A DNA stretch of 63,357 bases, from NCBI GenBank assembly GCA_031266805.1, contig JAISAH010000119.1, forward strand, positions 1-63,357. The letters run 5' to 3'. This stretch comes from Gracilibacteraceae bacterium. Its GTDB lineage: Bacteria; Bacillota; Desulfitobacteriia; Desulfitobacteriales; Syntrophobotulaceae. This document shows positions 25,510 through 42,286 of this stretch, in pieces. The notes under the pieces were generated by a model. The model ran no database searches and had not been told where the DNA came from. It worked only from the letters and a program-made list of their open reading frames with translations. The translations under genes were made by a program, and so were the position numbers. The stretch's first letter is position 1. Each line of letters begins with the position of its first letter.

Positions 25510-26945
25510 TATCTTCCTCCTTTCTTTGGAACAGACAGCATCCTCATAAATTCGGTTAAAGAATCCAGGTTTTCCAGCCGGTCAATTGTTTCTACTGCTT
25601 TCTTTGCCTGCTCTCTTTCAAGAACAGATTCTGTCAGCGACATGAAGCGCTGTTCCAGTTGCGTGTAGCTGAATTTCTCCGCACCGATCGATTGATCGCC
25701 GCGATGGGCTTGACGAAAATGCTTGTATATCTTTCCGTCATAAGTTGTCAACTCAACTTTTGCTCCGTAAAACTCCGGGAACATAGCGTTAAGTTCAAGG
25801 TCAGCCGTGCAAGTGATTCTCGCCGCCAAGTCAAGAATGCCCTGATCCTTTATCATTTCTTCTGTAAACTGAGCCAGAAAAGTGGTCATTGTTTCCCGGC
25901 GTTCACGAGAAAGAATCGCCGCAGCTACTGCGTAATAGATACTAAATTGCGCGTCGACAGTCGTTTGCGGGCGATAACGTCTTTCGGCGGGCGACGCTAC
26001 AATGGGCAGCGCCTCCTGATGAAGAAATATTTGTATGCTCTTGATACTGGTTGGTTCAATCTCATTTGCTTCAATCACATCCAAGGTAACATCAATGCCG
26101 GGGTGAGTGTCGCGGCAGCAGGCATAGGGCTTATAACTGGTTTTTTCAATCTCGTATAGTCCGGAAAAAAACGCTCGTTCCAGCAACTGGGGATCGTAAT
26201 TTCCTCGTTTGGCAAAGGCGTGAAGGAAACCAAATCTGCCTTCCAGCACAGATGCCGGGCCGGTTAGCCCGCCTTTGGCAAGAATCGCCGCTAAAACACC
26301 GTTGTGCGCCGACCATCCGCCGTGCAGCCTCTTGGTCCAGGTGCCATCCGTCTGGTACTCGAATAGACCGGAAGTTTGAGAACCGGCAATCCCCAAAGCA
26401 CATACGATTTGATCTGTATCAAGGTTGAGAGCCTTTGCCGCTCCGAGGGCGGCGCCAAAGGTTCCGCAGATCCCAGTGGGGTGCCAGCCTTGGTCGTGCA
26501 GCGTACCAGAAGTTATGGCCTGTCCCAGAGAACAGGTAAGCTGATAAGCCAAAACCACACTCACAATATACTCACGACCAGACGTTCCCGCTTTTTCCGC
26601 GGCTGCCAGACAGGCTGGGATTGCAGTTACACCAGGGTGTCCTACAAGTTGATTGTGATCGTCGTCTATCTCCAGGCAATGCCCCATGGTTCCGTTGACC
26701 AACGCCGCAGTTGCCGCCGGCACGCGTGTTTTATGCAATAATATACTTGCGTCAGCGTTACCTTCGATTTTCAAGGCATAACTAATAAGGATTTGCGCCG
26801 GTTTTTCACGCCAAGCCGGCAGAGAAACCCCGATTAAGTCCAGAGTACGATTTTTTACCTCTTGGACGACACTTTCCGGTAAGTGGACATAACGTAAAGC
26901 GGCGGCATATTGCCCGATTTTTTTTGCCAAGGCTAAGGACGTCAC
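25509..26945 (-). CDS. MmgE/PrpD-family dehydratase (copy 1)
   Basis: 478 residues. The MmgE/PrpD fold is shown by the all-helical N-terminal domain with LVNGTMGHCLEIDDDHN near residue 85, HPGVTAIPACLAAAEK, HPTGICGTFGAALGAAKAL near 150, and YKPYACCRDTHPGIDVTLD near 265. The family includes 2-methylcitrate dehydratase, cis-aconitate decarboxylase and iminodisuccinate epimerase, all acting on tricarboxylates or similar acids. The paralogue just upstream in the operon is closely similar along its whole length. The second histidine-rich helix and paired cysteines (ACC) are conserved in both. I infer a dehydratase or isomerase acting on the imported acid, substrate unknown. Confidence 0.9.
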   Translation of the reverse strand: MTSLALAKKIGQYAAALRYVHLPESVVQEVKNRTLDLIGVSLPAWREKPAQILISYALKIEGNADASILLHKTRVPAATAALVNGTMGHCLEIDDDHNQLVGHPGVTAIPACLAAAEKAGTSGREYIVSVVLAYQLTCSLGQAITSGTLHDQGWHPTGICGTFGAALGAAKALNLDTDQIVCALGIAGSQTSGLFEYQTDGTWTKRLHGGWSAHNGVLAAILAKGGLTGPASVLEGRFGFLHAFAKRGNYDPQLLERAFFSGLYEIEKTSYKPYACCRDTHPGIDVTLDVIEANEIEPTSIKSIQIFLHQEALPIVASPAERRYRPQTTVDAQFSIYYAVAAAILSRERRETMTTFLAQFTEEMIKDQGILDLAARITCTADLELNAMFPEFYGAKVELTTYDGKIYKHFRQAHRGDQSIGAEKFSYTQLEQRFMSLTESVLEREQAKKAVETIDRLENLDSLTEFMRMLSVPKKGGR

Positions 26946-26959: not shown

Positions 26960-28369
26960 CTAAACTTTAAGCATATTGGTTATGCCAGTGAGAGTGCTGA
27001 TGTTTTCCAAATCCAAAACCGTGTTTATGATCGTCTCCCGCCGAGCAGAATTCAAAAAGCCGGCCGTCAGCTTATGGAACCGCTTCACCAGTTCCTGCTC
27101 TGACCACCTTTTGCCTGCGACCTGCTCGCCGCGGTGCCCCTTTTCTAATTTGTAAAAAGTTTTGCCGTCTTTCGTTGTAATAAGCGCTGAGGCGGCATAG
27201 TAAGCGGGAAAGAGAACATTAACCTCCGGATGATCAGAGCAAGTTACTCTGGCGGCTAAAGCCAGAATGGCAGGATCTTTGATTTTTTCCGCCGTGAATT
27301 GATCAATGAAGGTCGTCATGGTATCACGTTGCTCCGGAGAAAGCAGTGTGGCTGCAATGGAGTAGTAAATACTGAACTGAGAATCCACCGTAGTTTCTGG
27401 ATGAAGTTTTCGCTCCGGCGGCTGGACTATGATCGGTATTGCTTCCGTTGGCAGTCTGACTTCTATCCGCTCAATATTGTCGATAGCAATACCATTTTCC
27501 TCGACCAAATCCAGTACCACGTCAATGGCTGTGTGGTTATGGCGGCAACAGGCGTAAGGTTTGTAACTTGTTCGATCAATTTCATAGACATTGATTGGAA
27601 AACTGTTTTCCATAACCGACCAATCATAATTACCTTCGCCGGCATAGGCATGCAGCCAGCCCATTCTGCCCTCAAAAACGGATTTAGGTCCGGTATAACC
27701 GCCGGCGGCAAAAGTCGCGGCCAACAAGCCGCTGTGCGCCGACCAGCCTCCGTGGAATCTCTTGGTCCAGGAGCCATCCGCTACAAACTCAAATAGTCCG
27801 GCGGACTGAGAACCGGCGATACCCAATGCACACGCCGTTTGCTCAGGAGACAAGCCCATGATTTTGGCGGAGCCCAAGGCCGCGCCAAAAATACCGCAGA
27901 CCCCAGTGGGGTGATAACCCCAGTCGTGTAAGACGCCGGAATGTACGGACATACCCAGCGAACAACTCAGTTGGTAAGCAACGACCAGTCCTGTAATATA
28001 ATCTTGGCCAGAGGCTCCTGTTTTTTCCGCCATCGCCAGACACGCAGGCACTGCCGTTACTCCAGGGTGTCCGAGCAGTTCGTTGTGATCGTCGTCTATT
28101 TCCAGGCAATGCGCGGCAGTTCCGTTGACCAATGCCGCCAGAGCGGCGGGAACACGCTTTTCATACATGAAAATGCCGGCTTCTTCGCGGCCGCCAGCCG
28201 TCAAAGCATAATCCGCCAGAATACGGGCAGGGGCTTCTTCATAAGCCGCCACCGTTACGGCGATATTGTCCAAAGTTTTATACTTTGCTTCTTGGACAAT
28301 ATTCAGCGGCAAGTCAGTATAGTTTAGCTGATTCGTATATTCACCAATTGTTAAGGCAAAAGGCTTCAC
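26960..28369 (-). CDS. MmgE/PrpD-family dehydratase (copy 2)
   Basis: 469 residues, paralogous to the gene 15 bases downstream. It has the same landmarks: ALVNGTAAHCLEIDDDHNE, HPGVTAVPACLAMAEK, HPTGVCGIFGAALGSAKIM and SYKPYACCRHNHTAIDVVLD. Differences cluster in the middle segment (GGYTGPKSVFEGRMGWLHAY versus GGLTGPASVLEGRFGFLHAF) and in the C-terminal domain, so the two probably act on different stereoisomers or on successive intermediates, or form a hetero-oligomer. Both have good ribosome-binding sites and intact frames. The duplication is retained without obvious decay, arguing that both copies are useful. Confidence 0.9.
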   Translation of the reverse strand: MKPFALTIGEYTNQLNYTDLPLNIVQEAKYKTLDNIAVTVAAYEEAPARILADYALTAGGREEAGIFMYEKRVPAALAALVNGTAAHCLEIDDDHNELLGHPGVTAVPACLAMAEKTGASGQDYITGLVVAYQLSCSLGMSVHSGVLHDWGYHPTGVCGIFGAALGSAKIMGLSPEQTACALGIAGSQSAGLFEFVADGSWTKRFHGGWSAHSGLLAATFAAGGYTGPKSVFEGRMGWLHAYAGEGNYDWSVMENSFPINVYEIDRTSYKPYACCRHNHTAIDVVLDLVEENGIAIDNIERIEVRLPTEAIPIIVQPPERKLHPETTVDSQFSIYYSIAATLLSPEQRDTMTTFIDQFTAEKIKDPAILALAARVTCSDHPEVNVLFPAYYAASALITTKDGKTFYKLEKGHRGEQVAGKRWSEQELVKRFHKLTAGFLNSARRETIINTVLDLENISTLTGITNMLKV

Positions 28370-28393: not shown

Positions 28394-30361
28394 TCAGATG
28401 GCTCTGGCAGTAACAGCGCCGTCCTTGATGGCGTCTAACGCGGTGCGCGCCTCTATGGCGTCGCCGATAACATAAACTTCAGAGTGCTTACCTTTAATTG
28501 CTTGGTATAAATTGTCATCCGCCTTAAATCCGATAGCCTGCACGATGGTATCCGCTTCAATAAAGAGCAGGGCTTTATTCTCAACTATATATAAACCATC
28601 GTTACGGATTTCCCGCACCGACGTGTGCTGGAAAATTGGCACCCGTAGTTTGAGAAGTCTTTTGCGCAGCGTCCGGTAAATAGATCCGACCATGCCCCGT
28701 CCCTGTTTGTCTTTTCCCAGTTCCAAGTCTGTAACAATTGAGACTTCCTTGCCTTCTTCCGCCAATGTTAAAGCGATTTCCAGACCGATACTGCGACCGC
28801 CGACCACCACGACACGGTCGCCGACTTGCGCTTTGCCTTCGATAACATCAACGGCTTGAACCAGACAATCTTTTTCACAGCCGGGGAGACGCAGGCTCAG
28901 AGGGACGCCGCCGGTGGCAATGATAACCACTTCCGGACACGCCTGCTCAATTGCCTGAGGCGTCGCTTCTCTGCCCGTGGTGACAGCTACGCCGGCTTTT
29001 TGTAATTGAATTGACAGATATCGCAGCAGCGACTTGAAATCCTTTTTGAAGGGTTCGCGGCAAACAGTATTCCACCTCCCGCCTAGCCGTTCCGCTCGTT
29101 CCCAGAGTCTGACTCTGTGCCCGCGCTTTGCCGCGTCCACCGCCGCCTGCATACCGGCCAGACCGCCGCCTATGACCAGTACGTCCTTGGGCGCCGCTGC
29201 CTTTTCCAAGCGCATTTCTTCTTCTTCCAAAACCTCGGGGTTTACGGTACAGCGCAGGAGAGGCGCGCCGTATTCATCGGAAAGATAGCCGGTACAGTTA
29301 CTGCAATAGAGGCATTGGCGCACATCTTCCGGTCTGCTTTCTTTGTATTTCTCCGGCAGCCCCGGATCAGCCAGCAAAGGACGACCGAGAGCAATAAAAT
29401 CCGCCCGACCCGCTCGCAGGATGCTCTCTGCCATTTCTGCTCCGCTTATCTTACCGGCTGTGATTACGGGGATCTTGACTGCTTTCTTAATATTGTCCGC
29501 CAGATGGACATTTATACCGTCTGCGAAAAGGAAATTGGGGTAAACATATTCGTTGCTCTCAATCGCGCCGGCAGACACGTGGATCGCGTCAACTCCCGCT
29601 TCTTCGAACAACAGGGCCTGAGCTGCGGATTCTTCGGGAGAAATCCCGCCAGGCAGGTAACTGTCGCCGCTGATCCGAATAGTAACCGGGAAATCAGAAC
29701 CCACCTGAGAGCGCACCGCGGCGATAATTTCACAAACAAGTCGGGCCCGTTTCTCAACGCTGCCGCCATAGCCGTCAGCGCGCCGATTGGTGTAAGGATT
29801 AAGGAAGGAACCCAATAAATAACCATGACAGGCATGGATATCCACTGCGTCGAATCCGGCCGCTTTCACTCGGCGCGCGCCTTCCCGGAAGGCGGTAACC
29901 AGTTCTCGAATATCGTCTGGCGTAATAACTCGAGGCATATAACCATTCTCGAAATACGGAACAGGTGAAGGCGCAATGATATCAATTTCTTTAGCTTTTT
30001 CCGGATCTTGAAAATGATTGCGAGTCACACAAAGGTACATTCCGTGGTGGTGAATTTCCCCCGCTATTTTGGCGCCATACTCATGGACGGTCTCGGTGAG
30101 CCGTTTAAGACCCGTAATGAAACTGTCGTCATAGATACAAGGAAAGCGCGGACTGCGGCCTTGCTTCAAAACAAACATCGAAGAAGATATAATAAGGCCC
30201 ACTCCGCCTTGGGCTCTGGCGGCATAATAACGCAACTCCCGCTCTGAAATCGTATGATCCTCATTTGAAGCGCGAAAACCCATGGGCGCCATAACCAAAC
30301 GGTTCTTGAGCACTAAATTGCCAATATTTCCCGGTTCGAACAGTTTTTCATATGCCGCCAC
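28394..30361 (-). CDS. 2-enoate/2,4-dienoyl-CoA reductase-type flavoenzyme (FMN, 4Fe-4S, FAD)
   Basis: 655 residues, typical of the Old Yellow Enzyme subgroup with Fe-S and FAD domains. The FMN TIM barrel covers about 1-370 (LVMAPMGFRAS, then GARRVKAAGFDAVDIHACHG with the catalytic histidines). The cluster cysteines follow in QCLYCSNCTGY and LLRCTVNP. The FAD/NAD domain (about 380-655) opens with DVLVIGGGLAGMQAAVDAA and has a second Rossmann motif at VVVVGGRSIGLEIALTL. Such enzymes reduce C=C bonds of 2-enoates using NADH. Here it could reduce an unsaturated di- or tricarboxylate as an electron sink. Its start overlaps the end of the aconitase X small-subunit gene by 14 bases. Confidence 0.9.
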   Translation of the reverse strand: MAAYEKLFEPGNIGNLVLKNRLVMAPMGFRASNEDHTISERELRYYAARAQGGVGLIISSSMFVLKQGRSPRFPCIYDDSFITGLKRLTETVHEYGAKIAGEIHHHGMYLCVTRNHFQDPEKAKEIDIIAPSPVPYFENGYMPRVITPDDIRELVTAFREGARRVKAAGFDAVDIHACHGYLLGSFLNPYTNRRADGYGGSVEKRARLVCEIIAAVRSQVGSDFPVTIRISGDSYLPGGISPEESAAQALLFEEAGVDAIHVSAGAIESNEYVYPNFLFADGINVHLADNIKKAVKIPVITAGKISGAEMAESILRAGRADFIALGRPLLADPGLPEKYKESRPEDVRQCLYCSNCTGYLSDEYGAPLLRCTVNPEVLEEEEMRLEKAAAPKDVLVIGGGLAGMQAAVDAAKRGHRVRLWERAERLGGRWNTVCREPFKKDFKSLLRYLSIQLQKAGVAVTTGREATPQAIEQACPEVVIIATGGVPLSLRLPGCEKDCLVQAVDVIEGKAQVGDRVVVVGGRSIGLEIALTLAEEGKEVSIVTDLELGKDKQGRGMVGSIYRTLRKRLLKLRVPIFQHTSVREIRNDGLYIVENKALLFIEADTIVQAIGFKADDNLYQAIKGKHSEVYVIGDAIEARTALDAIKDGAVTARAI

Positions 30362-30779
30362 TACTCCACCCCCTTTCCGGCAAAATAGTTATAGTTCCAT
30401 CATTTCCATTCACTCTGACGATTTGACCGCTAAACAGCTTTCCCGAACATTGGGGACACTCCAAGGCTGTGATTTCGCCCATAACAACCCCGCCAATGAA
30501 TATGGCATCCGCCTTTTCTACAACCAAAGCTTTCGGTTTTTGGCCATGTGTTGTGAGCCGGCTGATAATCCACATCGCCGCCGCCGAACCTTTCAGCGAC
30601 TGAAAAACAAGGATTCTATCTTTCAATTTTTGACCCAACAGATCGTGGCCTTTTTCGGTAATGACTCCCTTTACCGGGTCCACGCCACCCATAAATGAGA
30701 GCATTTGCTGAGTGACTATGGTTTCACCTTCAGTGACTCCGCCGTAAATCCCTCGGCCTTGCAGTACAGTTATGCTCAT
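30348..30779 (-). CDS. Aconitase X small subunit (DUF126)
   Basis: 143 residues with the swivel-domain features of the aconitase X small subunit: a GRGIYGGVTEGETIVT start near residue 8, SFMGGVDPVKGVI, and the SLKGSAAAMWIISRL segment near 65, the family's substrate loop. ADAIFIGGVVMGEITALE follows. It pairs with the large subunit encoded immediately upstream in the operon (4-base gap). In archaea this two-subunit form is phosphomevalonate dehydratase. In bacteria characterised aconitase X enzymes dehydrate cis-3-hydroxyproline. A new substrate among the branched acids of this locus is likely. Confidence 0.9.
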   Translation of the reverse strand: MSITVLQGRGIYGGVTEGETIVTQQMLSFMGGVDPVKGVITEKGHDLLGQKLKDRILVFQSLKGSAAAMWIISRLTTHGQKPKALVVEKADAIFIGGVVMGEITALECPQCSGKLFSGQIVRVNGNDGTITILPERGWSSGGI

Positions 30780-30783: not shown

Positions 30784-32013
30784 TTAACTCCAGTATCCCC
30801 TGATTGCGGCCTCTATGCACTCTTTCGTTGTGCCGTATTCCACTCCCAGATTATTGGCGGCCAAATAATACGCCGCCTTGGCGGAATCAGTCGCTGTTTT
30901 CTTGTAAGTATCTGTAGCGTAATTACAAATACACATACAGGTATCAGCGACTACATGAGCCCCCGACGATTCTATCGTTTCAACCTCACCTGTTCTTTCC
31001 AGCATCAGTTTTGTATTCTGCGACATACAAACCCATACCGTAATATTTGGGCGGATCTGCTTTCCTTCCAGCAAGGAAGCGACATAGCGAACCTTTTCCG
31101 GCGAATAGTGAGGGCAGCCCAGCGCCACAAAGTCCAATTCTGCTCCATTGTCCCAGAGAAGTTCTTCTTTAGCCAATGTTAATTCATTGCGGCCAAAAAT
31201 AATTTCTTCCGTAACATGCTGTTTGCCGTATCGAAGCGGGTCGGTTGTGACCTCTGGGGTGACGCCGAAAAAATGATAAAGCGGAATTGGCGCCGCCGTC
31301 GCCAAAGCAGCGCCCATGTGTACCAAATTCTCGATGGACGGTTTGATTTTTTGATCGGCAAAGACCGGTATGCGGGCGCCTATTCTTTTGCCGACATAGT
31401 TTCCCAGCGCGCCATAATCAGCAATGTCGGACAGATCGGCTCTTATGGTCACCAACACCTGACCGGGCCGGTTTGCTTCCAAATGCATCCCGTAACAAGG
31501 CGTACGTCCGCAAAGGGCGGAAGCTAAGGCGGCAACGTCGACATTGCGGTTCGTGCGAGCGCCGAAATAAGAGTTGGCAAAAATTACGGCGGAGGTTTCA
31601 ACCCAAGCCAAATGATCGCCGCGACAGTGAAGAAATCCTGAATAATAGGGTGTGCAGGTGAAACTGGGGAAGGCGCGTAATTTTTTCAGTGCAGCCACGG
31701 ATTTCATCTGCCAGGTAGCGTAATCGAAAGCGATGCCTAATTCGTCGTACTTTTCCAAATCTATAGAAACCGGGTTTGTTGTGGTCATCGCCCTGAAAGT
31801 CAGACCTGATTCCGCTAAACGAGTGATGAAGTCCATGCCGCCCTGACCGGAAATAGCCAGTATCTGAGTGCTGGCCAGATGAACATTGCTTACGGTCACT
31901 AAATCTTCGGCGCCCTCAAATTCACCGATTTTTAGCATTATCTGCATTAGTTTGGCTGCTTCCGGCCCGCAATCCCCACCAAGCAATTGTTTTTCATAGT
32001 CTGTCAGATGCAC
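30784..32013 (-). CDS. Aconitase X large subunit (DUF521)
   Basis: 409 residues starting with a GTG at 32013 preceded by AAAGGAG. The family's N-terminal LTDYEKQLLGGDCGPEAAKLM and VSNVHLASTQI are present. The Fe-S cysteines are probably those in FTCTPYYSGFLHCRGDHLAW and the C-terminal ADTCMCIC, followed by TDSAKAAYYLAANNLG, which is typical of aconitase X. With the DUF126 subunit it should catalyse a dehydration. A LeuC/LeuD enzyme in the same locus makes two different aconitase-superfamily enzymes in one pathway, so at least two dehydration/hydration steps are expected. Confidence 0.9.
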   Translation of the reverse strand: MHLTDYEKQLLGGDCGPEAAKLMQIMLKIGEFEGAEDLVTVSNVHLASTQILAISGQGGMDFITRLAESGLTFRAMTTTNPVSIDLEKYDELGIAFDYATWQMKSVAALKKLRAFPSFTCTPYYSGFLHCRGDHLAWVETSAVIFANSYFGARTNRNVDVAALASALCGRTPCYGMHLEANRPGQVLVTIRADLSDIADYGALGNYVGKRIGARIPVFADQKIKPSIENLVHMGAALATAAPIPLYHFFGVTPEVTTDPLRYGKQHVTEEIIFGRNELTLAKEELLWDNGAELDFVALGCPHYSPEKVRYVASLLEGKQIRPNITVWVCMSQNTKLMLERTGEVETIESSGAHVVADTCMCICNYATDTYKKTATDSAKAAYYLAANNLGVEYGTTKECIEAAIRGYWS

Positions 32014-32070: not shown

Positions 32071-33333
32071 TTAGAGCAGAGTGCGCGGATCTGTTATAAC
32101 CCCAGTGAGCGCCGCCGCCGCGACACTGAGAGGAGAGGCCAGATAAACTTCGGCTTCCTTGCCCATTCGACCGCGAAAGTTACGATTTGAACTGGAGAGG
32201 CAACGTTCGCCACTGGCCAAAAGCCCCTGATGAAACCCTGGGCAGGGACCGCAGCCCGGATTGCAAATCACAGCCCCGGAAGCGGATAAAGTCTCTAAAG
32301 TGCCATCTTGCAAAGCCTCGCGATAGATTTCCGCCGAAGCGGGAATAACCAGAAAACGGACTTGAGGATGCACTTTTTTCCCTTTAAGAATCAGGGCAGC
32401 TTGATGTAAATCTTCAATACGGCCGTTTGTACAAGAACCCAAAAAAGCCTGATCAATCTTTAAGCCGGCGATCATCTGGATACTTGTGACATTATCGACT
32501 GTGAAAGGGCAAGCTATCTGCGGCTCAAAAGCCGAGACATCTATTGTGATTGTCTCTGAATAAACCGCGTCCAAATCAGCTTTTATGACTTGGCCAATGC
32601 TCTCGAAGCGAGGGGCTCTCCTGTGCAGATAAGCTAGAACTTCTTCATTTGGTTCAATGACAGAACTCTTAGCTCCCATTTCAATCGCCATATTGCAGAT
32701 AGTCATGCGTTCTGAGATACTCAGGGCCTCAATCAGAGACCCCGAGTATTCCAAAGCTTTATATGACGCGCCTTCTGCTGTCATTCGACCACAAAGAAAA
32801 AGAATCAAATCTTTAGCGGTCACGCCGTTCGGAAAACTGCCAGATACTTCAATCTTTATGGTTTCGGGTACTTTGAACCAGAGCGAACCTTGCACAAATA
32901 CAGCCGCCATCTCTGAAGAACCGATCCCTGTGGCAAAGGCGCCAAAAGCTCCATGTGTGCAAGTGTGCGAATCTGTGCCCAAGACGACGGCGCCAGGATA
33001 GACCCAACCTTTCTCCGGCATTACCTGATGGCAGATGCCTTCATTATAGCCATAAAACCTAAGCCCTTGTTCTATGGCGAATTCTCGCACCATTTTTTGT
33101 ACTTCGGCGCTGCTTTCCGAAGGCGCGGGAACCGCGTGCTCAAAGAGAACCATAATTTTTTCGGGATCCCAGACCCGATCCCGGCCAATAGCGCGAAAAG
33201 CCTGAACGGTGGAGCCGCCGGTCAGATCGTGGATCATAGCGGTATCCACCTCAGCCCGCACGATGTCTCCGGGTTTGACCGAAGATTGCCGGGCGGCTCG
33301 CGCCAAGATCTTTTCTACTATTGTGAAACCCAT
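32071..33333 (-). CDS. LeuC-type large subunit of an aconitase-family hydro-lyase
   Basis: 420 residues, the size of 3-isopropylmalate dehydratase/homoaconitase large subunits of the small (prokaryotic-archaeal) type. The [4Fe-4S] ligands are in FLGSCTNGRIEDL and CNPGCGPCPGFHQG, and the family motif SSNRNFRGRMG follows. VLGTDSHTCTHGAFGAFATG near residue 113 is also characteristic. The partner small subunit is at 25024-25509, a remote position within the same operon. Likely reaction: reversible dehydration and rehydration of a 2- or 3-substituted malate such as citramalate, methylmalate or homocitrate; the sequence alone does not settle which. Confidence 0.9.
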   Translation of the reverse strand: MGFTIVEKILARAARQSSVKPGDIVRAEVDTAMIHDLTGGSTVQAFRAIGRDRVWDPEKIMVLFEHAVPAPSESSAEVQKMVREFAIEQGLRFYGYNEGICHQVMPEKGWVYPGAVVLGTDSHTCTHGAFGAFATGIGSSEMAAVFVQGSLWFKVPETIKIEVSGSFPNGVTAKDLILFLCGRMTAEGASYKALEYSGSLIEALSISERMTICNMAIEMGAKSSVIEPNEEVLAYLHRRAPRFESIGQVIKADLDAVYSETITIDVSAFEPQIACPFTVDNVTSIQMIAGLKIDQAFLGSCTNGRIEDLHQAALILKGKKVHPQVRFLVIPASAEIYREALQDGTLETLSASGAVICNPGCGPCPGFHQGLLASGERCLSSSNRNFRGRMGKEAEVYLASPLSVAAAALTGVITDPRTLL

Positions 33334-33352: not shown

Positions 33353-34117
33353 TTAAACCTTAACCGCAGCCCTTAGTTCGGCCTGGTTTTTTTCTATACC
33401 GGTCCTAATCAACCCGGCCACGCCGGTGATTACAAACTGAACGCCTTTACCGGTCCATTTGGCCACATCGTCGGGGCTAACCGCATAAATGCCGCAGAGT
33501 TTGTTTCTGGCCTGAGCAGCAAGCAAGGCGCTTTCGATTTTCGCCTGAACTGCAGGCGCCCCCATCTGTCCCGGATACCCCATAGAGACGGAGAGATCAT
33601 TGGGGCCGACAAATAGCATGTCGATACCATCCACCGCTGCGATATCGCCGGCGGAATCCACCGCTCCCGGCGTCTCCGCCTGCACAATCAGCAAGGTGTT
33701 TTTGTTCGCCGTTTCTATGGCTTCTCGCAAAGGAATCCTGCCATACTGCGCGGCCCGGACCACCCCCGCTGATCCGCGATCTCCCATCGGCGGATACTTG
33801 GCAAACTGCACCAAGGCTTTCGCGTCGTCAACGGTGTCTACTCTTGGCGCCATAATTCCGTCCGCGCCCATATCCAATACTCGCAAAACATACTGCCTCG
33901 TTATTGACATGATCCGGACGATGGGGTAAACACCGCTGCCCTTGATGACTCTGATCAGCAGATCAATATCAGACCAGTCATAGGCGCAGTGTTCAGCGTC
34001 AATGACGATGTAGTCAAAGCCCGCCCGGCACATCATTTCCGCCACTTCCAAAGATCGAATCGTAATAAACGAGCCCAGCAGCTTTTCGCCATTCAACAGG
34101 CGCTCCTTAATCGTCAT
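33353..34117 (-). CDS. HpcH/HpaI-family class II aldolase
   Basis: 254 residues. The metal-dependent pyruvate aldolase signature is complete: the general base histidine in VIDAEHCAYDW (about residue 44), arginine in PIVRIMS, the metal-binding glutamate in IVQAETPGAVDSAG (about 146) and aspartate in FVGPNDLSVSMGYPG (about 172). Such enzymes cleave 4-hydroxy-2-oxo acids, or substituted malates, to pyruvate (or oxaloacetate) and an aldehyde. Here it is the most plausible carbon-carbon cleaving enzyme. An aldehyde product would be a substrate for the GAPDH-like protein encoded upstream in the same operon. It lies 20 bases upstream of leuC in transcription order and follows the HMGL gene by 27 bases. 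Confidence 0.9.
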   Translation of the reverse strand: MTIKERLLNGEKLLGSFITIRSLEVAEMMCRAGFDYIVIDAEHCAYDWSDIDLLIRVIKGSGVYPIVRIMSITRQYVLRVLDMGADGIMAPRVDTVDDAKALVQFAKYPPMGDRGSAGVVRAAQYGRIPLREAIETANKNTLLIVQAETPGAVDSAGDIAAVDGIDMLFVGPNDLSVSMGYPGQMGAPAVQAKIESALLAAQARNKLCGIYAVSPDDVAKWTGKGVQFVITGVAGLIRTGIEKNQAELRAAVKV

Positions 34118-34144: not shown

Positions 34145-35341
34145 CTATTGCGCGTATTTCCGAATCAGATCTTCGACTTCTTGTTGGGTGGCATAGACCC
34201 TATCGCTGACGATCTGCAGGACCTCTCGCAAAGCATCTTCAATTTTGGCTTCAGAGATGGCCACATTAATACTGCGGGCTAACATATCAATGGAAGACCT
34301 GGAAGTTGTGGAACCGAAATAGACCTGGCGCGCCTGACCAACTACCGAAGGGTGATAGGGTTCAAAAGTCTGCCAATTGCCGCTGAGTATTCCTTGGACA
34401 TGCATATCGGCTTCGTGAATAAAGCAGTTTTCACCGACTACCGGCTTGTTGCGCGGCACTTTGATGCCGGCCGTTTCCACCAGTTTGGAAAGCCTGATCA
34501 ATTGGCTCAGATCAATACCGGTATCCACGTTATAGAGCGCTTCCAAAGCCAATACAGTTTCTTCAAAAGAGGTGTTGCCGGCCCGATCCCCCAGACCGTT
34601 GACTACCAGATCAATGGCGGAGGCGCCGCCTTCAACGGCGGCACAGGTGTTGGCTGTTCCCATACCAAAATCATCATGGGTATGGTATTGGATCGGGATG
34701 CTGATTGTTTTCACCAGTTCGCTGACCCACCAGCGAGTGGCGGCCGGGTTCAGCACTCCTAACGTATCATAAACCCTTACGCGGCTTGCGCCGGCTTGTT
34801 CAGCAATCTTCAGCAGCGCTTTTAAATAGTTTAATTCCGTACGCGTTGTATCATAGGGACCATAAGTGACTTCAAAACCATACTGCTTGGCTTTGTAAAT
34901 CGCTTCCGGCGTGACGTCCATGATCAAACCCTTAGAAAGGCCTTTGATTTTGAACTGGTAATCAGAGGAAGGAATGTTAATGTCCACTTTGTCAATTCCG
35001 GATTCTTTAGCTACATCCAGAAGTTTTTCAATGTCGGCTGTGCCGTGAGCCCGGATATACCCAGTGAGGATAAGCTTGGGGCAAGCTTTTTTCACCGCCT
35101 TAGCCGCTGCGGCATGTTCTTCGATATAGCCCATATAACCCATGTTGACTTCCCGAACCCCCATCTCTTCCAAGACGCGAGCGATCTCGACCTTCAGGTC
35201 CGTCGACATGTTCATGCCGGGAGTTTCTTCGCCCTCCCTTAAGGTTTCATCGAAGACAATGACTTTCCTTGGAAGATTCATTTGCGAACGCACCTCGGGG
35301 ACGAAATTCGCTTCCCCGACATTCCAGAGTTTCTCGGCCAT
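34145..35341 (-). CDS. HMGL-like enzyme (isopropylmalate/citramalate/homocitrate synthase family)
   Basis: 398 residues from the ATG at 35341, which has AAAGGAG before it; an upstream in-frame start would add a non-homologous leader. The DRE-TIM barrel is clear: VIFDETLREGEETPGMNM near residue 25 (metal and substrate loop), and the metal histidines in IPIQYHTHDDFGMGTAN near 205. The C-terminal part is short, so the leucine-type regulatory domain is missing. These enzymes condense acetyl-CoA or a homologue with a 2-oxo acid, or run as lyases. In a catabolic operon the enzyme could either prime the pathway or cleave a hydroxy-acyl-CoA. The motif differs from canonical LeuA (RDGEQ). Confidence 0.85.
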   Translation of the reverse strand: MAEKLWNVGEANFVPEVRSQMNLPRKVIVFDETLREGEETPGMNMSTDLKVEIARVLEEMGVREVNMGYMGYIEEHAAAAKAVKKACPKLILTGYIRAHGTADIEKLLDVAKESGIDKVDINIPSSDYQFKIKGLSKGLIMDVTPEAIYKAKQYGFEVTYGPYDTTRTELNYLKALLKIAEQAGASRVRVYDTLGVLNPAATRWWVSELVKTISIPIQYHTHDDFGMGTANTCAAVEGGASAIDLVVNGLGDRAGNTSFEETVLALEALYNVDTGIDLSQLIRLSKLVETAGIKVPRNKPVVGENCFIHEADMHVQGILSGNWQTFEPYHPSVVGQARQVYFGSTTSRSSIDMLARSINVAISEAKIEDALREVLQIVSDRVYATQQEVEDLIRKYAQ

Positions 35342-35408
35342 TTTTTCTACTCCTTTCAAATGGGTGAAATAATTTATCTCTGCGGTTCGTTGTGAACCGG
35401 TGAGATCA

Positions 35409-36572
35409 TCAGGAAACATTCAAGACATCTTTCTTGATATACGCGGTTCCTTCCATCAGAAGCCGCGCGGTTCGGGCTATTTCAGCCTGGCGGATAACAA
35501 GCTGCCCGTTTATGTCGTCAACGGCGGATTTCACGCTGATCACGCCGCCTGGATGACCGATCCGCAAAAGCGGCTTAAGTCGCGCTTCCGGAGACAGCAA
35601 ATCATAGAGAATCGTACCGGAAATACGGGCCGCAACACCTGTACAGACTGTGCCAGTGCCGGCATAAGTCTTATGGACGCGCTGCATAAAGAGTAAACGA
35701 GCCGCCACATCAATATCATCCGCCTCGACACGCACATTATTCAGGCCGACATAACCAGATGATTTGGCAATTATTACCACTTGCGGCGTGAGCGGATTTT
35801 GCTCTGTGGCGTCCACCGGTTTCTTAACCAGTCCGGATCGGTAAGCGACCTCACAGCGGATCTGTTCGAGCAAAGCCATGATATGAGTATTGCTTTCGAT
35901 CTCAGTGGGTGATTCATTACCTCTCAAGCCCAGATCTTCAGCACGGATGAAGAAATCTAAAGTGCCGGCGTCAACGACGGAGACTTGAAAGTCGCGTCCC
36001 GGCATGTGAATGATATCCGCCGCTTGTCCTGTGGGCAGAAGCTTGCCGGTGATCGCTCCAGCCAGGTCAGAGAAATCCAAATCAATTCTGGCTCCGGTTC
36101 CGGGTACGCCGTCAATTCGAAAATCTCCTGTTACAGCCGCTTTCCCACCTGTAACAGGTACGGAGGCTTTGATTATTTTCTGCGTATTGGTCTGGTGGAT
36201 CCTTACTGTGGTGACAGGATACTCAAGGGGGACAAAACCCCAGTCAACAGCCAGCGGACCAACCATAGCGGAGATATTGCCGCAGTTACCGATGTAGTCC
36301 ACAAACTCTCGGAAGATATCCACTTGGGCGAAGGTGTAGTCAATATCAGCATCCGGTCTGGTGGGCGGGCCGATGATGCCCAATTTACTGGTCAGCATGT
36401 CCGCTCCGCCTAGCCCGTCAATTTGGCGGGCGTCCGGACTGCCGAATATGGCTCTGATAACAGCGTCTCGCTGCTTGGGTTCTGACGGCAGTTCATTCGT
36501 GCGAATAAAAATCCCCTTGCTGGTGCCGCCTCGGGCAATGGCTGCCTGATAAGGAATCATCTGCGGATGCAT
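35409..36572 (-). CDS. PrpF-family isomerase/tautomerase
   Basis: 387 residues of the PrpF family, a diaminopimelate-epimerase-like fold. RGGTSKGIFIRTNELP near residue 14, the SKLGIIGPPTRPDADIDYTF strand-loop, and DYIGNCGNISAMVGPLAVD with the conserved cysteine near residue 106 are typical. Known members isomerise methylaconitate (PrpF) or tautomerise oxalomesaconate (GalD). It fits a locus for unsaturated tricarboxylates, where it could convert cis/trans or double-bond isomers so that the aconitase-type enzymes can act. It overlaps nothing; the PGK-like gene follows upstream on the same strand after 6 bases. Confidence 0.9.
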   Translation of the reverse strand: MHPQMIPYQAAIARGGTSKGIFIRTNELPSEPKQRDAVIRAIFGSPDARQIDGLGGADMLTSKLGIIGPPTRPDADIDYTFAQVDIFREFVDYIGNCGNISAMVGPLAVDWGFVPLEYPVTTVRIHQTNTQKIIKASVPVTGGKAAVTGDFRIDGVPGTGARIDLDFSDLAGAITGKLLPTGQAADIIHMPGRDFQVSVVDAGTLDFFIRAEDLGLRGNESPTEIESNTHIMALLEQIRCEVAYRSGLVKKPVDATEQNPLTPQVVIIAKSSGYVGLNNVRVEADDIDVAARLLFMQRVHKTYAGTGTVCTGVAARISGTILYDLLSPEARLKPLLRIGHPGGVISVKSAVDDINGQLVIRQAEIARTARLLMEGTAYIKKDVLNVS

Positions 36573-36578: not shown

Positions 36579-37838
36579 TCACCTTCCCTGCCCATATTTT
36601 TCAGCCGATAGTCTCAGCGCTTTGATTACCGGTAATTCTTCACCGCTGAGAAAACGAACCAGACTGCCGCCGGCCGAACTGACGTAGGAAAAACACTCAT
36701 AAAGACCAAACTTGTTAACCGCCGTAATGCTGTCGCCGCCGCCCAAGATAGAAAAAGCGCCGCTTTTCGCAATCGCTTGCCAAAGAGACTTTGTGCCCAG
36801 TTCAGTGGCGGCTTGCTCGAACACGCCCGCCGGACCGTTTATGAAGATGGTGCCGCTATCCTCAATGATTTTTTCATAAACCGCAATGGTTTGCGAGCCG
36901 ATATCGCCAATCAGTTTGTCTTGAGGCGCCGCTTTCAGTTCCCCTTCCATCCTGACACCATCCTGCTCCCAGGCTATATCTTGAGGCAGCAGTATCTTAG
37001 CGCCATATTCACATAAAAGTTCCTTTGCGGTCTGAATATATTCTCCAAGACTGTTTTTATAAATAAAGCTCTCCGAAGCGGCGCCTAAACGAATGTCTTT
37101 AGCCATCAGCATAATATGTCCCACTAATCCGCAAGTAAGAACCAAATCAGCCGCGCCGCTTTGCAAAACAGCGGGAAGGATCAAAAAGGCGTCTTGGATC
37201 TTAGCGCCGCCGAAAACGTAAGTGCAAGGCCGTTTTGGTTCTTGCAGAATCCCGCTCAAAATGGAGTATTCTTCTTCGAACAGACGGCCCATCTGAGAAG
37301 GCAATACCAAAGGGAAACCTGCGAGTGATGGTTGTGAGCGGTGGGCCGCGGCAAACGCGTCACAGACAAAGTAATCAGCCAGAGGCGCTAAAACGCGCAC
37401 TAAGAGGGTTTTGGCCTGATCTTCGAAATTCAGGTTAAGTTTTGTCTCAAATAGGGTGAGTTCTTCCGCCAGAAAACGGACATTGTCCAAAAGCAGGATG
37501 TCTCCGTCTCGCAAAGAACTGATGCTGTCACGAGCGGCGGGACCGCAGATATCGTCAATATAGGTCACCGGTTTCTGCAAAAGCTCACTGAAAATCCGGG
37601 AATGCGGCTCTGTTGAACGATAGTTCTTGTATTCCAGATCCCCGCCCTGATGAGTCAATAGCACCGTTTTAGCGCCGGTCTCTGATAGTTCTCTGATCGT
37701 AGGCAGAGATCTCCGGATCCGCGTGTCGTCAGCCAGTTCTCCCTGCGGCTGCTTGAGCGGCGAATTCAGATCGACTCGGCAGAGTACGGTCTTGCCCTCA
37801 TAATCTATGTCGTCCATGGTGTTGATCCCGTATTTCAT
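36579..37838 (-). CDS. Archaeal-type phosphoglycerate kinase homologue
   Basis: 419 residues, resembling archaeal PGK more than bacterial PGK. It has RVDLNSPL (Asp23, Asn25), DDTRIRRSLPTI (Arg40), LLLDNVRFLAEE, the archaeal AFAAAHRSQPSLAGF motif, FINGPAGVFE and the nucleotide loop LGGGDSITAVNKFG. So ATP and most carboxylate and phosphate contacts are kept. In place of the usual HxGRP motif it has HQGGD at residues 63-67: the arginine that binds the 3-phosphate of 3-phosphoglycerate is glycine. The enzyme may therefore use another acyl phosphate. It lies 15 bases after the archaeal-type GAPDH gene, consistent with a coupled pair making ATP. Confidence 0.85.
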   Translation of the reverse strand: MKYGINTMDDIDYEGKTVLCRVDLNSPLKQPQGELADDTRIRRSLPTIRELSETGAKTVLLTHQGGDLEYKNYRSTEPHSRIFSELLQKPVTYIDDICGPAARDSISSLRDGDILLLDNVRFLAEELTLFETKLNLNFEDQAKTLLVRVLAPLADYFVCDAFAAAHRSQPSLAGFPLVLPSQMGRLFEEEYSILSGILQEPKRPCTYVFGGAKIQDAFLILPAVLQSGAADLVLTCGLVGHIMLMAKDIRLGAASESFIYKNSLGEYIQTAKELLCEYGAKILLPQDIAWEQDGVRMEGELKAAPQDKLIGDIGSQTIAVYEKIIEDSGTIFINGPAGVFEQAATELGTKSLWQAIAKSGAFSILGGGDSITAVNKFGLYECFSYVSSAGGSLVRFLSGEELPVIKALRLSAEKYGQGR

Positions 37839-37853
37839 TACGACTTCACCTGT

Positions 37854-38870
37854 TTACTTTAATCCAAGATAAGCGTCGGTGCGGTTCATGGCTTCTTCTC
37901 GGTTGGTTTGCATTTCCAGGCTGGCTCTGACGCCGTCCATGGTTTCCGGAGTGACTACCGCTTCCTGGGGGATATTAATGGCAAATATTATTTCTCTGCC
38001 GCTGAACACAAGCGTCTCCTCAAACAAGGCAATGTCATACATATCGCCGCGCTTGTGCCCCAGATCACGCGCGTAACGGAAAAGCGCGGCATTGGAATTG
38101 AATCCGTCAGCGATTTTCACAACTCGAATTCGGGGATGAGCCTGAAAGCGCTCCAGAACGGTATCTTTGCTGACGGTTTTTTTCAAAGTCGCTATGACGC
38201 TGATAATATGACCATGAGTGATGGGAAGATGGACTAAGAGACCGGTGGCCTCAATATGAGGCATGATATGCATTAGATCAAGGGCTTGATGGTTAGGCGC
38301 CGGCTCGACCAAAGCCACGTCTGTCAAGCCGCGATGAGAATCTCCGGGATCGGCGACACGGCGCATGATCGTGATGATAACTCTTTCCACCCCCACTAAA
38401 CGGTCCAAGCAGTCAATTGCTCTAATCAATCCTGTGGTATTGCAAGAAGTCAGTTTGAGAAAATTTTTGCCAAGCCCAGAGTCATAATTGGCGCAGCCAT
38501 GAAAAAACACATCCGCGACGTCGCTTTTTTCACCGCCCTGAAAAATCGCTTTTAAATTGTGAGCTTGATAAATTTCTTTATTCCTGAGACCGACTCCGGC
38601 ACTGGTTGAATCAAGAATAATGTCGCATTCGGCCAAAAGATCTTCCAAACTGCCGCTGACGGGGATGCCGGCGTTTTCCAGCGCGGATACGCCACTGGTA
38701 ATCGGACAATAGAGTTTATAAGGCGCGTCTTGCTCAACCAGCGCCCGTAAAGCGAGGGTCGGAGCGATATCCGCCACACCGATCAATTCCATGTCCTTCT
38801 GCCGCGATACCCCGTCTGCCAGTCGCTGACCAATCACGCCATACCCAACGACGCCAACCCTTGCTTTCAC
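37854..38870 (-). CDS. Archaeal-type (type II) glyceraldehyde-3-phosphate dehydrogenase homologue
   Basis: 338 residues from the GTG at 38870, which follows GAGGAGG; the longer upstream frame lacks homology. NAD(P) binding: VGVVGYGVIGQRLADGV. The catalytic cysteine is Cys143 in KLTSCNTTGLIR, and the likely catalytic histidine is in LPITHGHIIS. RRVADPGDSHRG, ARDLGHKRGDMYDIALFEE and the final VVTPETMDGVRA are archaeal GAPDH features. The family's usual SHHGPD stretch is replaced by NHQALD, which may alter substrate binding. Normal role: oxidise glyceraldehyde 3-phosphate to 1,3-bisphosphoglycerate. Beside a transporter and acid-processing enzymes, another aldehyde is likely. Confidence 0.85.
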   Translation of the reverse strand: MKARVGVVGYGVIGQRLADGVSRQKDMELIGVADIAPTLALRALVEQDAPYKLYCPITSGVSALENAGIPVSGSLEDLLAECDIILDSTSAGVGLRNKEIYQAHNLKAIFQGGEKSDVADVFFHGCANYDSGLGKNFLKLTSCNTTGLIRAIDCLDRLVGVERVIITIMRRVADPGDSHRGLTDVALVEPAPNHQALDLMHIMPHIEATGLLVHLPITHGHIISVIATLKKTVSKDTVLERFQAHPRIRVVKIADGFNSNAALFRYARDLGHKRGDMYDIALFEETLVFSGREIIFAINIPQEAVVTPETMDGVRASLEMQTNREEAMNRTDAYLGLK

Positions 38871-39011: not shown

Positions 39012-40052
39012 TTACTTAAATTTGTCCTGATACTGGGCGTATAAATCAGAAATAGCTTTAAATTCTTTATCCGCCTCATCCCCGATCTTCGGGGTCAAAA
39101 TAGTGTCGCCGCCGATAGCTTTCAAAGCTTCAATATGAGCGGGGTTATTGACCGCTTTAATAAATGTGTCCTCAAGTATCTTGAGTCTGTCTGGGTATTG
39201 TTCCGCAAAGGCTTTTGTAACGCCATAGCCGCGCACACTGGACAAAGTCGGAAACTCAACTCCATATTTTTCTTTAACCTGATCGTTGACGGGCAGGCCT
39301 TCGGGAAAAAGAGACTGGGCTTCATCACCGAACAAACCGATAACTTTTATGCTGTCCTTGATGCCATACATGGAAAACTCGCCGGACAGGTAGCCGTCGA
39401 TGTGGCCGCCCAGCAGAGCAGTACGGGCAGGGCCGCCGCCGTCAAAAAGCACCAAATTGAACTCAATCCCCAGTTCATCCATCATAATATAGGCGGAAAG
39501 CTCCGAGTCGCTGCGTCCGACCGCGCCCAAGGAATACTGATTGGGACGGGCTTTCATATCTTCGATCATGTCCTCCATACTGTTCCACGGGCTTGTTTTC
39601 AGCACGTCAACTGCGTTGACGTCTTCGTGGAGCAAACCGAAGATGTAGAAATCATCCCAGGAATAAGGCGCGTTCTGTAAAAGCATGGTAAAGGTGACAT
39701 GTGGCTGGACGAAAGAAGCAATGGTGTAGCCATCGGGATCCGCGTCTCTCAGCATGGTCCACGAGATCTGACCGCCGGCTCCGGTATGATTGTCAACAAT
39801 CATCTGAGTGCCAAGTTCTTCTTCCCAAAAAGGCTGCAGAGCGCGCGTCGCCGTATCCGTAATTCCGCCGACGCCGTGAGGATGCAAAACAACGATGGGT
39901 TTAGCGGGATACTTTTCAGCGGGAGAAGTGGATGCCGGCCCGCCTGTGCCGTTGGCGGGAGCAGCGGTCGGCGAAGTGCCGCAGGCGCTCAGAATCATCA
40001 ACGCGAGTGATAGCGCAGCCAGCAGACATCCGATTTTCGTCTTTGTCCTCAT
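39012..40052 (-). CDS. tctC: TctC-type solute-binding lipoprotein
   Basis: 346 residues. A lipoprotein signal peptide (MRTKTKIGCLL, hydrophobic core, lipobox LSAC near residue 24) is followed by a Pro-Thr-Ser-rich linker. The tripartite tricarboxylate transporter (TTT) binding protein begins at YPAKPIVVLHPHGVGGITDT. The VDNHTGAGGQISW and VQPHVTFTM segments fit the family, which binds carboxylates such as citrate, tartrate or aromatic acids. It delivers the substrate to TctA/TctB encoded next to it. A good GGAGGTG site precedes the start. A gap of 141 bases lies between it and the GAPDH gene, with nothing obvious in it. Confidence 0.9.
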   Translation of the reverse strand: MRTKTKIGCLLAALSLALMILSACGTSPTAAPANGTGGPASTSPAEKYPAKPIVVLHPHGVGGITDTATRALQPFWEEELGTQMIVDNHTGAGGQISWTMLRDADPDGYTIASFVQPHVTFTMLLQNAPYSWDDFYIFGLLHEDVNAVDVLKTSPWNSMEDMIEDMKARPNQYSLGAVGRSDSELSAYIMMDELGIEFNLVLFDGGGPARTALLGGHIDGYLSGEFSMYGIKDSIKVIGLFGDEAQSLFPEGLPVNDQVKEKYGVEFPTLSSVRGYGVTKAFAEQYPDRLKILEDTFIKAVNNPAHIEALKAIGGDTILTPKIGDEADKEFKAISDLYAQYQDKFK

Positions 40053-40169: not shown

Positions 40170-41705
40170 CTAATCGTCAATCTTCAGCTGCGAAATTGTC
40201 TTGTTCCTGGCCAAGACGAGGGGAACGACCACTGAACAAAGAGCAAGCAGCAGCAGGAAGATGCAGATGGGAGATGTGAACAGGACTGAAAAGTTACCGT
40301 TGTAAGTCATAGCTGTGCGAATCAGGTTGCCGTCGGCGATCGGCCCCAGGATCATGCCCAGGACGATAGCGATGGAGGGGTACCCGTTTCGCTTGAAAAG
40401 CACCCCAAGCACGCCAAAGCAAATCATAATAATGACGTCGTAAAGCGTCGCCCCAATGGAGTATGAACCAATTACACAAAACAGCGTAATGATTGGCACT
40501 AAATACATGGTGCGGATTTTCATGGTCAAAGAGAATAGATAAGCGAAGAAACTGCCCTCGCAGAGCATAACTATATTGCCGATGATCACGCACAGAGTCA
40601 GGCCGTATACCATGGGCATGTGTTCGTTGAAAAGACGGGGACCTGGATTGAGTCCATGCATCATCAGCGCCGCCAGTAGAATCGCCGTGGTGGCGCTGCC
40701 GGGAATGCCAATGGTGAAAGAAGTCATCATAGCGCCGCCGGTACTGGCGTTATTCGCGCTTTCGCTGGCGACCACTCCCTCGGGGTGACCAGTACCAAAC
40801 TCTTTGCCGTTCTTGGAGTATTGCTTAGACTGGGTATAGGAAATCAGAGAGGCGACGCTGGAACCGGCCGCAGGCAAAGCGCCCACAAGAGTCCCGATAA
40901 GCCATCCTCTGATCAAAGTGGCGCGGTAAGAGAAGGTCTGAAGCATCCCCTTAAACACTCGTTTAACAGTAAATTTATTCTGCGCCAAAACAGAGCCGCT
41001 CTCGCCTTGATGATCATCTTCCATAACGTATTCACGAGTTATCAGGTCGAATAGTTCAGTAAAGGCAAAAAGTCCAATGAGAGCGGAAACAAAGGGGATT
41101 CCGTCCATTAAGTAAGGTATGCCGAATGTTCCGCGAAGCGAGCCGGTGGGCGCGATTCCCAACGTCCCCAGCAATAAGCCGAAGAGGGCCATCAGAACAC
41201 CTTTGAAAATGCTGTCAGAACCGATGGAGGCGACCACCGCCATGCCAAACATCGCCAGCATAAACATTTCCGGGGCGCCGAACCGAAGAGCAAAATCCGC
41301 TATAGGTTTCATAAAGAGCAGCATGACGACATAACTGGCCCAACCGCCGAGAGCGGAAGCGCTAAGCGACAGCCCCTGGGCTTCATTAGCCAATCCTTTC
41401 TTTGCCATCGGATAACCGTCGAAAGCCGTACACGCTGAAGAAGGATCGCCCGGGCAATTATAGAGTATAGCGGTGATTGAGCCGGCATAGACGCTGCCTA
41501 CATAACAAGCGGTAAGCATGATCATGGCGTTCATCGTTTCAAAAGAAAAAGTGACCGGCAAGAGTATAATAGTCGCCATCGTGCCGGTCATACCCGGAAT
41601 CGCTCCGGCGACGATGCCCCAAGCCATGCCCAGCAGCAGACAGAGTATGCCCTCCAGCGTAAAAATAAGGAAGAAGCCTTCAACTAATGATTGAACATCA
41701 ATCAT
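40170..41705 (-). CDS. tctA: TctA large membrane subunit of tripartite tricarboxylate transporter
   Basis: 511 residues with about 11-12 hydrophobic segments. TctA hallmarks are GIVAGAIPGMTGTMATIILLP near residue 30, YNCPGDPSSACTAFDGYPMAKKG near 85, and the repeat GIPGSATTAILLAALMMHGL near 335, the duplicated substrate/ion-translocating motifs. It uses the sodium or proton gradient to import the acid handed over by TctC. Its neighbours are TctB (16 bases upstream on the same strand) and TctC (117-base gap), a normal TTT order. Confidence 0.95.
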   Translation of the reverse strand: MIDVQSLVEGFFLIFTLEGILCLLLGMAWGIVAGAIPGMTGTMATIILLPVTFSFETMNAMIMLTACYVGSVYAGSITAILYNCPGDPSSACTAFDGYPMAKKGLANEAQGLSLSASALGGWASYVVMLLFMKPIADFALRFGAPEMFMLAMFGMAVVASIGSDSIFKGVLMALFGLLLGTLGIAPTGSLRGTFGIPYLMDGIPFVSALIGLFAFTELFDLITREYVMEDDHQGESGSVLAQNKFTVKRVFKGMLQTFSYRATLIRGWLIGTLVGALPAAGSSVASLISYTQSKQYSKNGKEFGTGHPEGVVASESANNASTGGAMMTSFTIGIPGSATTAILLAALMMHGLNPGPRLFNEHMPMVYGLTLCVIIGNIVMLCEGSFFAYLFSLTMKIRTMYLVPIITLFCVIGSYSIGATLYDVIIMICFGVLGVLFKRNGYPSIAIVLGMILGPIADGNLIRTAMTYNGNFSVLFTSPICIFLLLLALCSVVVPLVLARNKTISQLKIDD

Positions 41706-41721: not shown

Positions 41722-42186
41722 TTAATAAAGATAAAACTCCAAAGGTTTTAAAAGGCCCCAAGGCAAAGTGACGTAGAAAAAGCGCACGAAGATGATGAAA
41801 ACGGTTATTGATAATCCCCATGAGATAAGCAGTGAGCGAGGCCAGGATCCGCCTAATATCTTCATAAAAACTGTAAAAACAATACCGGAAACGATAACAA
41901 AACCCAAAGTTTGGAAGAACAGCAGATACACAACCATGAGGCCTAAGAAAATCAGCGGTCTTTTCAAAGGACTGAATTTGAAACCTTGGCGCTCAGCAGG
42001 AGGAATCAGACGGTGCTCCCGGATGATTTTGAAGATCAGAAAAACCGAAACAATGACCATGCCGACAGCCACAAATTTAACGAAAAGATATGTTTGAGCG
42101 GGATTGCGCAGATTCACCGTACCCAGAAAATATACCGGCACTAACAACAGACAAAAAATGGGAAATAAAAGTTTTTCAAATAACAT
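41722..42186 (-). CDS. tctB: TctB small membrane subunit of tripartite tricarboxylate transporter
   Basis: 154 residues with four hydrophobic segments, the standard size and layout of TctB: an N-terminal helix (LFPIFCLLLVPVYFLGTVN), a second at VAVGMVIVSVFLIFKII, then the pair at PLIFLGLMVVYLLFF and WGLSITVFIIFVRFFYV. It is the first gene of the catabolic locus and lies 84 bases downstream of the sigma-54 promoter. Sequence similarity within this family is low, so the call rests on size, topology and its position next to TctA. Confidence 0.85.
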   Translation of the reverse strand: MLFEKLLFPIFCLLLVPVYFLGTVNLRNPAQTYLFVKFVAVGMVIVSVFLIFKIIREHRLIPPAERQGFKFSPLKRPLIFLGLMVVYLLFFQTLGFVIVSGIVFTVFMKILGGSWPRSLLISWGLSITVFIIFVRFFYVTLPWGLLKPLEFYLY

Positions 42187-42270: not shown

Positions 42271-42286
42271 TGCAAGAAGTGTGCCA
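42271..42286 (-). promoter_or_regulatory. Sigma-54 (-24/-12) promoter of the catabolic locus
   Basis: On the minus strand the sequence reads TGGCACACTTCTTGCA, a full match to the consensus TGGCAC-N5-TTGC with the correct GG-GC spacing. It points toward tctB, giving a leader of about 70 bases. The locus encodes its own sigma-54 activator at 22919-24955, which supports function. No comparable sigma-A promoter is apparent in front of tctB. Confidence 0.85.

Follow-up and report, generated by a model that had tools for sequence, protein, structure and literature searches.

The window (the whole 63,357-nucleotide stretch of a Gracilibacteraceae contig analyzed here) carries two adjacent, full-length genes on its minus strand that encode archaeal-family homologues of glycolytic enzymes. 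The first codes for a type II (archaeal-family) GAPDH homologue (37854..38870), which scores 376 bits against the NCBIfam type II GAPDH family NF003251 (cut-off 185) and 288 bits against TIGR01546 (cut-off 233), and contains the catalytic Cys motif SCNTTGL; a GGAGG ribosome site precedes its GTG start (38870) by 8 nt, and this start agrees with that of its relatives. The second, after an intergenic gap of 15 bp, codes for a PGK homologue (36579..37838; PF00162, 355 bits) with the motif HRSQPSLAGF, whose closest solved structure is the Pyrococcus horikoshii PGK (2cun). As argued below, we propose that these are a phosphorylating D-malate-semialdehyde dehydrogenase and a D-malate kinase working towards ATP, respectively.

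From tctB (42186) to an AbrB-type gene (19576), every gene is on the minus strand, with short gaps. Upstream of the pair are genes for the tripartite tricarboxylate transporter components TctB (41722..42186; PF07331) and TctA (40170..41705; PF01970) and the solute-binding protein TctC (39012..40052; PF03401). Downstream are genes for a PrpF-family double-bond isomerase (35409..36572; PF04303), whose best NCBIfam match is 4-oxalomesaconate tautomerase (316 bits, under the cut-off of 440), an HMGL-like/homocitrate-synthase-like enzyme (34145..35419; PF00682, PF22617) with no equivalog match above cut-off, and an HpcH/HpaI class II pyruvate aldolase (33353..34117; PF03328), a candidate aldehyde source whose nearest solved relative is the 2-keto-3-deoxy sugar aldolase YfaU. 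These are followed by an aconitase/homoaconitase-family large subunit (32071..33333; NF001614, 575 bits, cut-off 385), the large (30784..32013; PF04412, 403 bits) and swivel (30348..30779; PF01989) parts of aconitase X, an OYE-family Fe-S flavin reductase (28394..30361; PF00724, PF07992), two MmgE/PrpD-family dehydratases (26960..28369 and 25509..26945; each PF03972, PF19305), and a LeuD/HacB-type small subunit (25024..25509; TIGR02087, 160 bits, cut-off 109). The run is completed by a sigma-54-dependent activator with PAS, AAA+, and Fis-type HTH domains (22919..24955; PF00158, PF00989, PF02954), a LarA-family nickel-dependent malate racemase (21626..22903; NF052593, 540.9 bits, cut-off 500), an aldo/keto reductase with a ferredoxin-type Fe-S domain (20619..21629; PF00248, PF13534), and the AbrB-family membrane protein (19576..20622; PF05145).

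A sigma-54 -24/-12 promoter with the exact sequence TGGCACACTTCTTGCA lies on the minus strand at 42271..42286, 84 bp upstream of tctB; it is the sole exact match in the window, across which 0.06 would be expected. Terminator-like sites occur at near shuffle frequency (26, compared with 21.4 in shuffles, sd 4.4), and the run is likely to be a single transcript. It includes neither a transketolase nor a malic enzyme, and larA is 15 kb from the GAPDH/PGK pair. The minus-strand segment at 24955-36572, with its HMGL-like, HpcH, aconitase-type, aconitase X, two PrpD, and OYE genes, constitutes a rare polycarboxylate module: in 399 genomes of the phylum the HMGL-like protein has no relative at E 1e-110 besides itself, and the aconitase X relatives found are all at ≤41% identity, with no close kin of the window's feed module. 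On the plus strand, a divergent glycogen cluster (42572-52328) encodes a phosphorylase, two ADP-glucose pyrophosphorylase-like proteins, glycogen synthase, and an alpha-amylase/4-alpha-glucanotransferase fusion.

The host genome (3.38 Mb, 95% complete) contains one other pgk (contig C63, 535 bits) and one other gap (contig C38, 221 bits), and these separate, ordinary genes therefore make the window pair a second set, supporting the view that it is a specialized copy. The first-pass annotation had described the archaeal signatures (SCNTTGL and HRSQPSLAGF), the 15-base spacing, and an HpcH/HpaI aldolase in the same gene run (33353-34117), all of which we confirmed. It had also expected ordinary glycolytic enzymes elsewhere, and had made its idea of a specialized pair depend on there being another GAPDH and PGK in the genome; both are present, and the idea stands.

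The nearest relatives found for the GAPDH homologue are bacterial, with 58-73% identity and from several phyla, and archaeal sequences are at ∼38%; we thus rejected a recent transfer from an archaeon. By sequence, the two proteins are archaeal in family yet form an established bacterial clade. GAPDH homologues at this level of identity are sporadic: counting the host genome each time, they occur in 4 of 83 class genomes and in 9 of the 399 genomes sampled across the phylum, and others are in Flexilinea and Deltaproteobacteria.

Residues of this clade suggest retained chemistry and an altered substrate. In GAPDH, the catalytic Cys and one His of MHxH are kept and the other His is replaced by Ile, while H192, L215, M216, H219, and H297 (2czc numbers) are all substituted without exception. 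The pocket motifs GPIN, SHHGPD, and TLMHxH become RGL[TV][DN], [SN]HQA, and THGHII, such that the conserved pocket of glyceraldehyde 3-phosphate-type enzymes is found neither in the window GAPDH nor in its clade. The K34 position is Asp in 18/22 sequences and Asn in 4/22, and the change to Asp would favor NAD over NADP. In the PGKs (n = 21), D23, N25, R38, H62, R122, and R170 are conserved along with the lysine of GGAK or GGLK, and the window protein, with its PGK family score and catalytic residues, also retains the nucleotide-site GGGDS. The Arg65 position (SHLGRP), which contributes to binding the phosphate of 3-phosphoglycerate, is however lost in all 21 clade members, and reads HQGGD, HQGSD, HQGDT, or HQGDS; in the window protein it is HQGGD, with no positively charged residue. 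The loss is suggestive of a changed substrate, but is not decisive alone because Pyrococcus PGK also departs from Arg at this position, having Lys.

Gene clustering was compared over 21 loci, the window included, some of which are close kin (L007/L019; L053/L054), so there are fewer independent cases than loci counted. The most frequent partner is LarA (16/21); others are malic enzyme, IolD with IolB, and IolE (seven loci each), IolG as identified by clustering (five), an E1/E2/E3 complex (four), and IolN (two). A split transketolase is present in nine loci, one of which, from a spirochaete, we set aside for want of the catalytic Cys in its GAPDH homologue; in this locus (L014:8166-12287) the split transketolase accompanies GAPDH and PGK homologues, SCNTTG is changed to QPSLVG, and the PGK shares the HQGDT motif. 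Several other arrangements are seen. In L030:1-9196, L031:1323-10652, L053, and L054:5803-15341, the pair occurs with LarA, malic enzyme, and an E1/E2/E3 complex that resembles pyruvate or acetoin dehydrogenase, and which may convert a ketose to malate semialdehyde and acyl-CoA. In L009:1827-9845, L010, L016, and L017, a D-2-hydroxyacid dehydrogenase gene adjoins GAPDH and could take the place of LarA as the D-malate consumer; L009 and L010 also carry an FGGY kinase and a GPH symporter adjoining GAPDH. In the IolN-type clusters L048:7682-14388 and L052:5046-11000, the pair is accompanied by a split transketolase and by LarA of a separate group, and L052 has IolO-like and Zn-ADH genes as well; for these clusters, a route via 5-keto-L-gluconate to tartrate semialdehyde is possible.

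We rejected LarA as a chance neighbor, as it recurs in 16/21 loci, and the LarA proteins tested in these loci are all above the malate-racemase cut-off except those of L006 (disrupted) and L011 (470 of 500). Window LarA scores 375 bits against the solved malate racemase Mar2 (6d6z), with the next at 219, and keeps the His-Lys pair, GGHKAA aligning to GAHKAA of Mar2 at the W358/T359 positions of LarA; a His/Gln-Lys pair at these positions is the rule for LarAH6 (PMC11770544). In a tree it clusters with malic-enzyme-linked racemases and not with the LarA of IolN loci. Elsewhere in the host genome are a malic enzyme and LarC (C151, 443 bits), the one protein taken as the marker of NPN cofactor synthesis.

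The inositol loci offer a plausible view of where the pair's substrate comes from. Seven genomes carry IolD (G466, G467, G468, G469, G053, G131, and G311, the last 75% complete), and in none of them is there an IolC or an IolA above cut-off, the best matches being an IolC-like protein in G131 (233 of 300 bits) and an IolA score of 249 of 448.5 bits; the IolN-type genome G352 has a full-score IolA-family enzyme. The IolB-like protein of the inositol loci scores under its cut-off, and a split transketolase is encoded in 6 of the 7 IolD/IolB loci. The phosphate-orienting His of transketolase (ATHAG in Carboxydothermus) gives way to Asp in IolD-type enzymes and to Tyr in IolN-type ones, and the identical His-to-Asp change is reported for the sulfofructose transketolase (PMC11659671). 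In two loci (L029 and L051) a phosphofructokinase gene adjoins larA, as expected if a C2 unit enters the pentose phosphate pool, and L029 has an FBA-family gene beside the phosphofructokinase. Several species seem to use a route based on the pair in place of the textbook final part of inositol breakdown.

D-malate semialdehyde (OHC-CHOH-CH2-COO-) has the structure of D-glyceraldehyde 3-phosphate, except that CH2COO- stands where the latter has CH2OPO3. We think it probable that the pair is a neofunctionalized version of the ATP-yielding step of glycolysis acting on this carboxylate analogue. The GAPDH homologue would convert D-malate semialdehyde, NAD, and phosphate to 1-malyl phosphate, and the PGK homologue would transfer the phosphate to ADP to give D-malate and ATP; LarA would then racemize D-malate to L-malate, a substrate that malic enzyme can convert to pyruvate by decarboxylation. 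In the inositol loci, IolG, IolE, IolD, and the IolB-like protein would take myo-inositol to the ketose 2-deoxy-5-keto-D-gluconate, from which the split transketolase would remove the C5-C6 ketol unit, leaving malate semialdehyde; together, transketolase and pair would replace IolC, IolJ, and IolA. The malate semialdehyde so formed would have the configuration of D-glyceraldehyde 3-phosphate in Fischer projection, and its oxidation would therefore give D-malate. In the window, the aldehyde would most likely come from the HpcH aldolase acting downstream of a polycarboxylate imported by TctABC, in which case the aldolase substrate would be 4,5-dihydroxy-2-oxoheptanedioate or a carboxylated relative. 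This reading draws on gene content, conserved clustering, family membership, residue changes, and the lack of above-cut-off IolC and IolA, and from these we infer all of the activities, the stereochemistry, the direction of flux, and the window's feed pathway. Several observations count against it: the window run is without transketolase and malic enzyme genes and has larA far from the pair, the window GAPDH clusters with IolN-type loci, Pyrococcus PGK also lacks Arg65, and G131 and G352 have the IolC-like and IolA-family proteins noted above. At the level of the family, context and residues make a good case for malate; for the window pair, there is a good case for a four-carbon hydroxy-dicarboxylate, most likely malate.

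The first alternative keeps the mechanism but has another four-carbon substrate: the pair in the window would convert tartrate semialdehyde (2,3-dihydroxy-4-oxobutanoate) to tartrate, which LarA would epimerize. In a tree, the window GAPDH clusters with IolN-type loci (support 0.93, with its position within the group weak) and, like theirs, its sequence has Asp in place of Asn (RGLTN to RGLTD/RGVVD). We reason that the IolN product would be 5-keto-L-gluconate and that transketolase acting on it would leave behind tartrate semialdehyde. LarAH6-type racemases have a tartrate side activity (PMC11770544). Nonetheless, we regard tartrate as unlikely, since window LarA groups with the malic-enzyme-linked racemases rather than those of IolN loci, and we identified no tartrate dehydratase family in the operon.

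It is improbable that this is an ordinary glyceraldehyde 3-phosphate/3-phosphoglycerate pair, acquired as an archaeal-type auxiliary set for glycolysis or gluconeogenesis. Both proteins do score above the type II GAPDH and PGK cut-offs with catalytic residues kept, but ordinary copies exist elsewhere in the genome, no relative retains Arg65, the GAPDH pocket is altered throughout the clade, and the pair keeps company with malate racemase, malic enzyme, and inositol genes; we rejected a glycolytic role on this context, the duplicate copies, and the Arg65 loss. The PGK and GAPDH reactions are reversible and the window has aldolase- and synthase-type genes, raising the question as to whether the pair runs backward, with PGK activating D-malate or a related acid at the expense of ATP and GAPDH reducing the acyl phosphate to an aldehyde for a biosynthetic condensation. 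However, the genes around the pair are for import, inositol catabolism, and malic enzyme, and the K34-to-Asp change favors NAD over NADP, so reverse flux seems more improbable still. Least probable of all is that the HpcH aldolase supplies the pair with glyoxylate or with the semialdehyde of succinate, malonate, or tartronate. HpcH/HpaI aldolases do release pyruvate and aldehydes of that kind, but a malate racemase would not be required for any of their products, and a 2-hydroxyaldehyde group, as in the normal GAPDH substrate, is missing from glyoxylate and from the succinate and malonate semialdehydes.

Those four aldehydes were the candidates of the first-pass annotation, and the recurring malate racemase and malic enzyme point instead to D-malate semialdehyde. 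Its broader proposal of substrate-level phosphorylation from an aldehyde fares better, with context and residues pointing to one other than glyceraldehyde 3-phosphate: the annotation was right about a specialized pair and probably right about ATP production from an unusual aldehyde, but probably mistaken as to the identity of that aldehyde. The aldolase that it favored as the aldehyde source is a candidate in the window but is specific to it, and relatives seem to use the split transketolase or the E1/E2/E3 complex. With somewhat less assurance than for the malate chemistry itself, we favor a portable energy-conserving module, a D-malate-semialdehyde dehydrogenase with an ATP-forming D-malate kinase, that finishes the breakdown of inositol, other polyols, and polycarboxylates in anaerobes of several phyla, and for which transketolase, E1/E2/E3 complex, or aldolase would be interchangeable aldehyde sources. 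To our knowledge, just a handful of soluble substrate-level phosphorylation reactions are known. If correct, the proposal would add one more, in which GAPDH and PGK have exchanged a phosphate ester for a carboxylate that matches it in shape. Inositol would then have a kinase-free path to malate, malate racemases with no physiological role so far would gain one, and the automatic glycolytic annotation of such genes would be corrected.

In the open-licence literature we found no description of malyl-phosphate substrate-level phosphorylation or of a transketolase branch of inositol breakdown, and nothing on IolM/IolN/Thermotoga. The IolD loci have the steps to 2-deoxy-5-keto-D-gluconate (IolG, IolE, IolD, and the IolB-like step) in common with the canonical iol pathway, but instead of an above-cut-off IolC or IolA they have the split transketolase, GAPDH, PGK, and LarA. 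In a synthetic malyl-phosphate pathway to 2,4-dihydroxybutyrate, it is reportedly the C4 carboxyl group that reacts, and not the one proposed here. Malate, malyl phosphate, and malate semialdehyde are intermediates common to that pathway and the one proposed here, although the former is man-made and biosynthetic (PMC12104201). In the sulfofructose transketolase pathway, a split transketolase with the shared His-to-Asp change likewise shifts a C2 unit from an unphosphorylated acidic ketose, but the acid is a sulfonate rather than a carboxylate and there is no GAPDH/PGK step (PMC11659671). Malate racemases LarAH5 and LarAH6 are known, and the LarA of the module belongs to the same group as LarAH6/MAR2; the main texts of these reports make no mention of inositol, transketolase, phosphoglycerate, or glyceraldehyde, and do not tie the racemase to GAPDH or PGK (PMC7583248, PMC11770544). 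In Acinetobacter carnitine breakdown, a malic semialdehyde dehydrogenase makes D-malate with no gain of ATP; the aldehyde and product are those proposed here, but the enzyme is of the aldehyde-dehydrogenase family (Cys290/Glu256) and forms no acyl phosphate, and D-malate proceeds to pyruvate by D-malate dehydrogenase, not racemization (PMC11353897). The known counterparts of the pair are the archaeal type II GAPDH and PGK (Pyrococcus 2czc and 2cun; Methanothermus 1cf2), with the same fold, catalytic Cys and His, and PGK catalytic residues, and, as proposed here, the same type of reaction, in which an aldehyde, phosphate, and NAD give an acyl phosphate and then ATP. The bacterial clade differs from them in a pocket changed throughout, in the lost Arg65 position of PGK, and in having malate and inositol genes as its neighbors.
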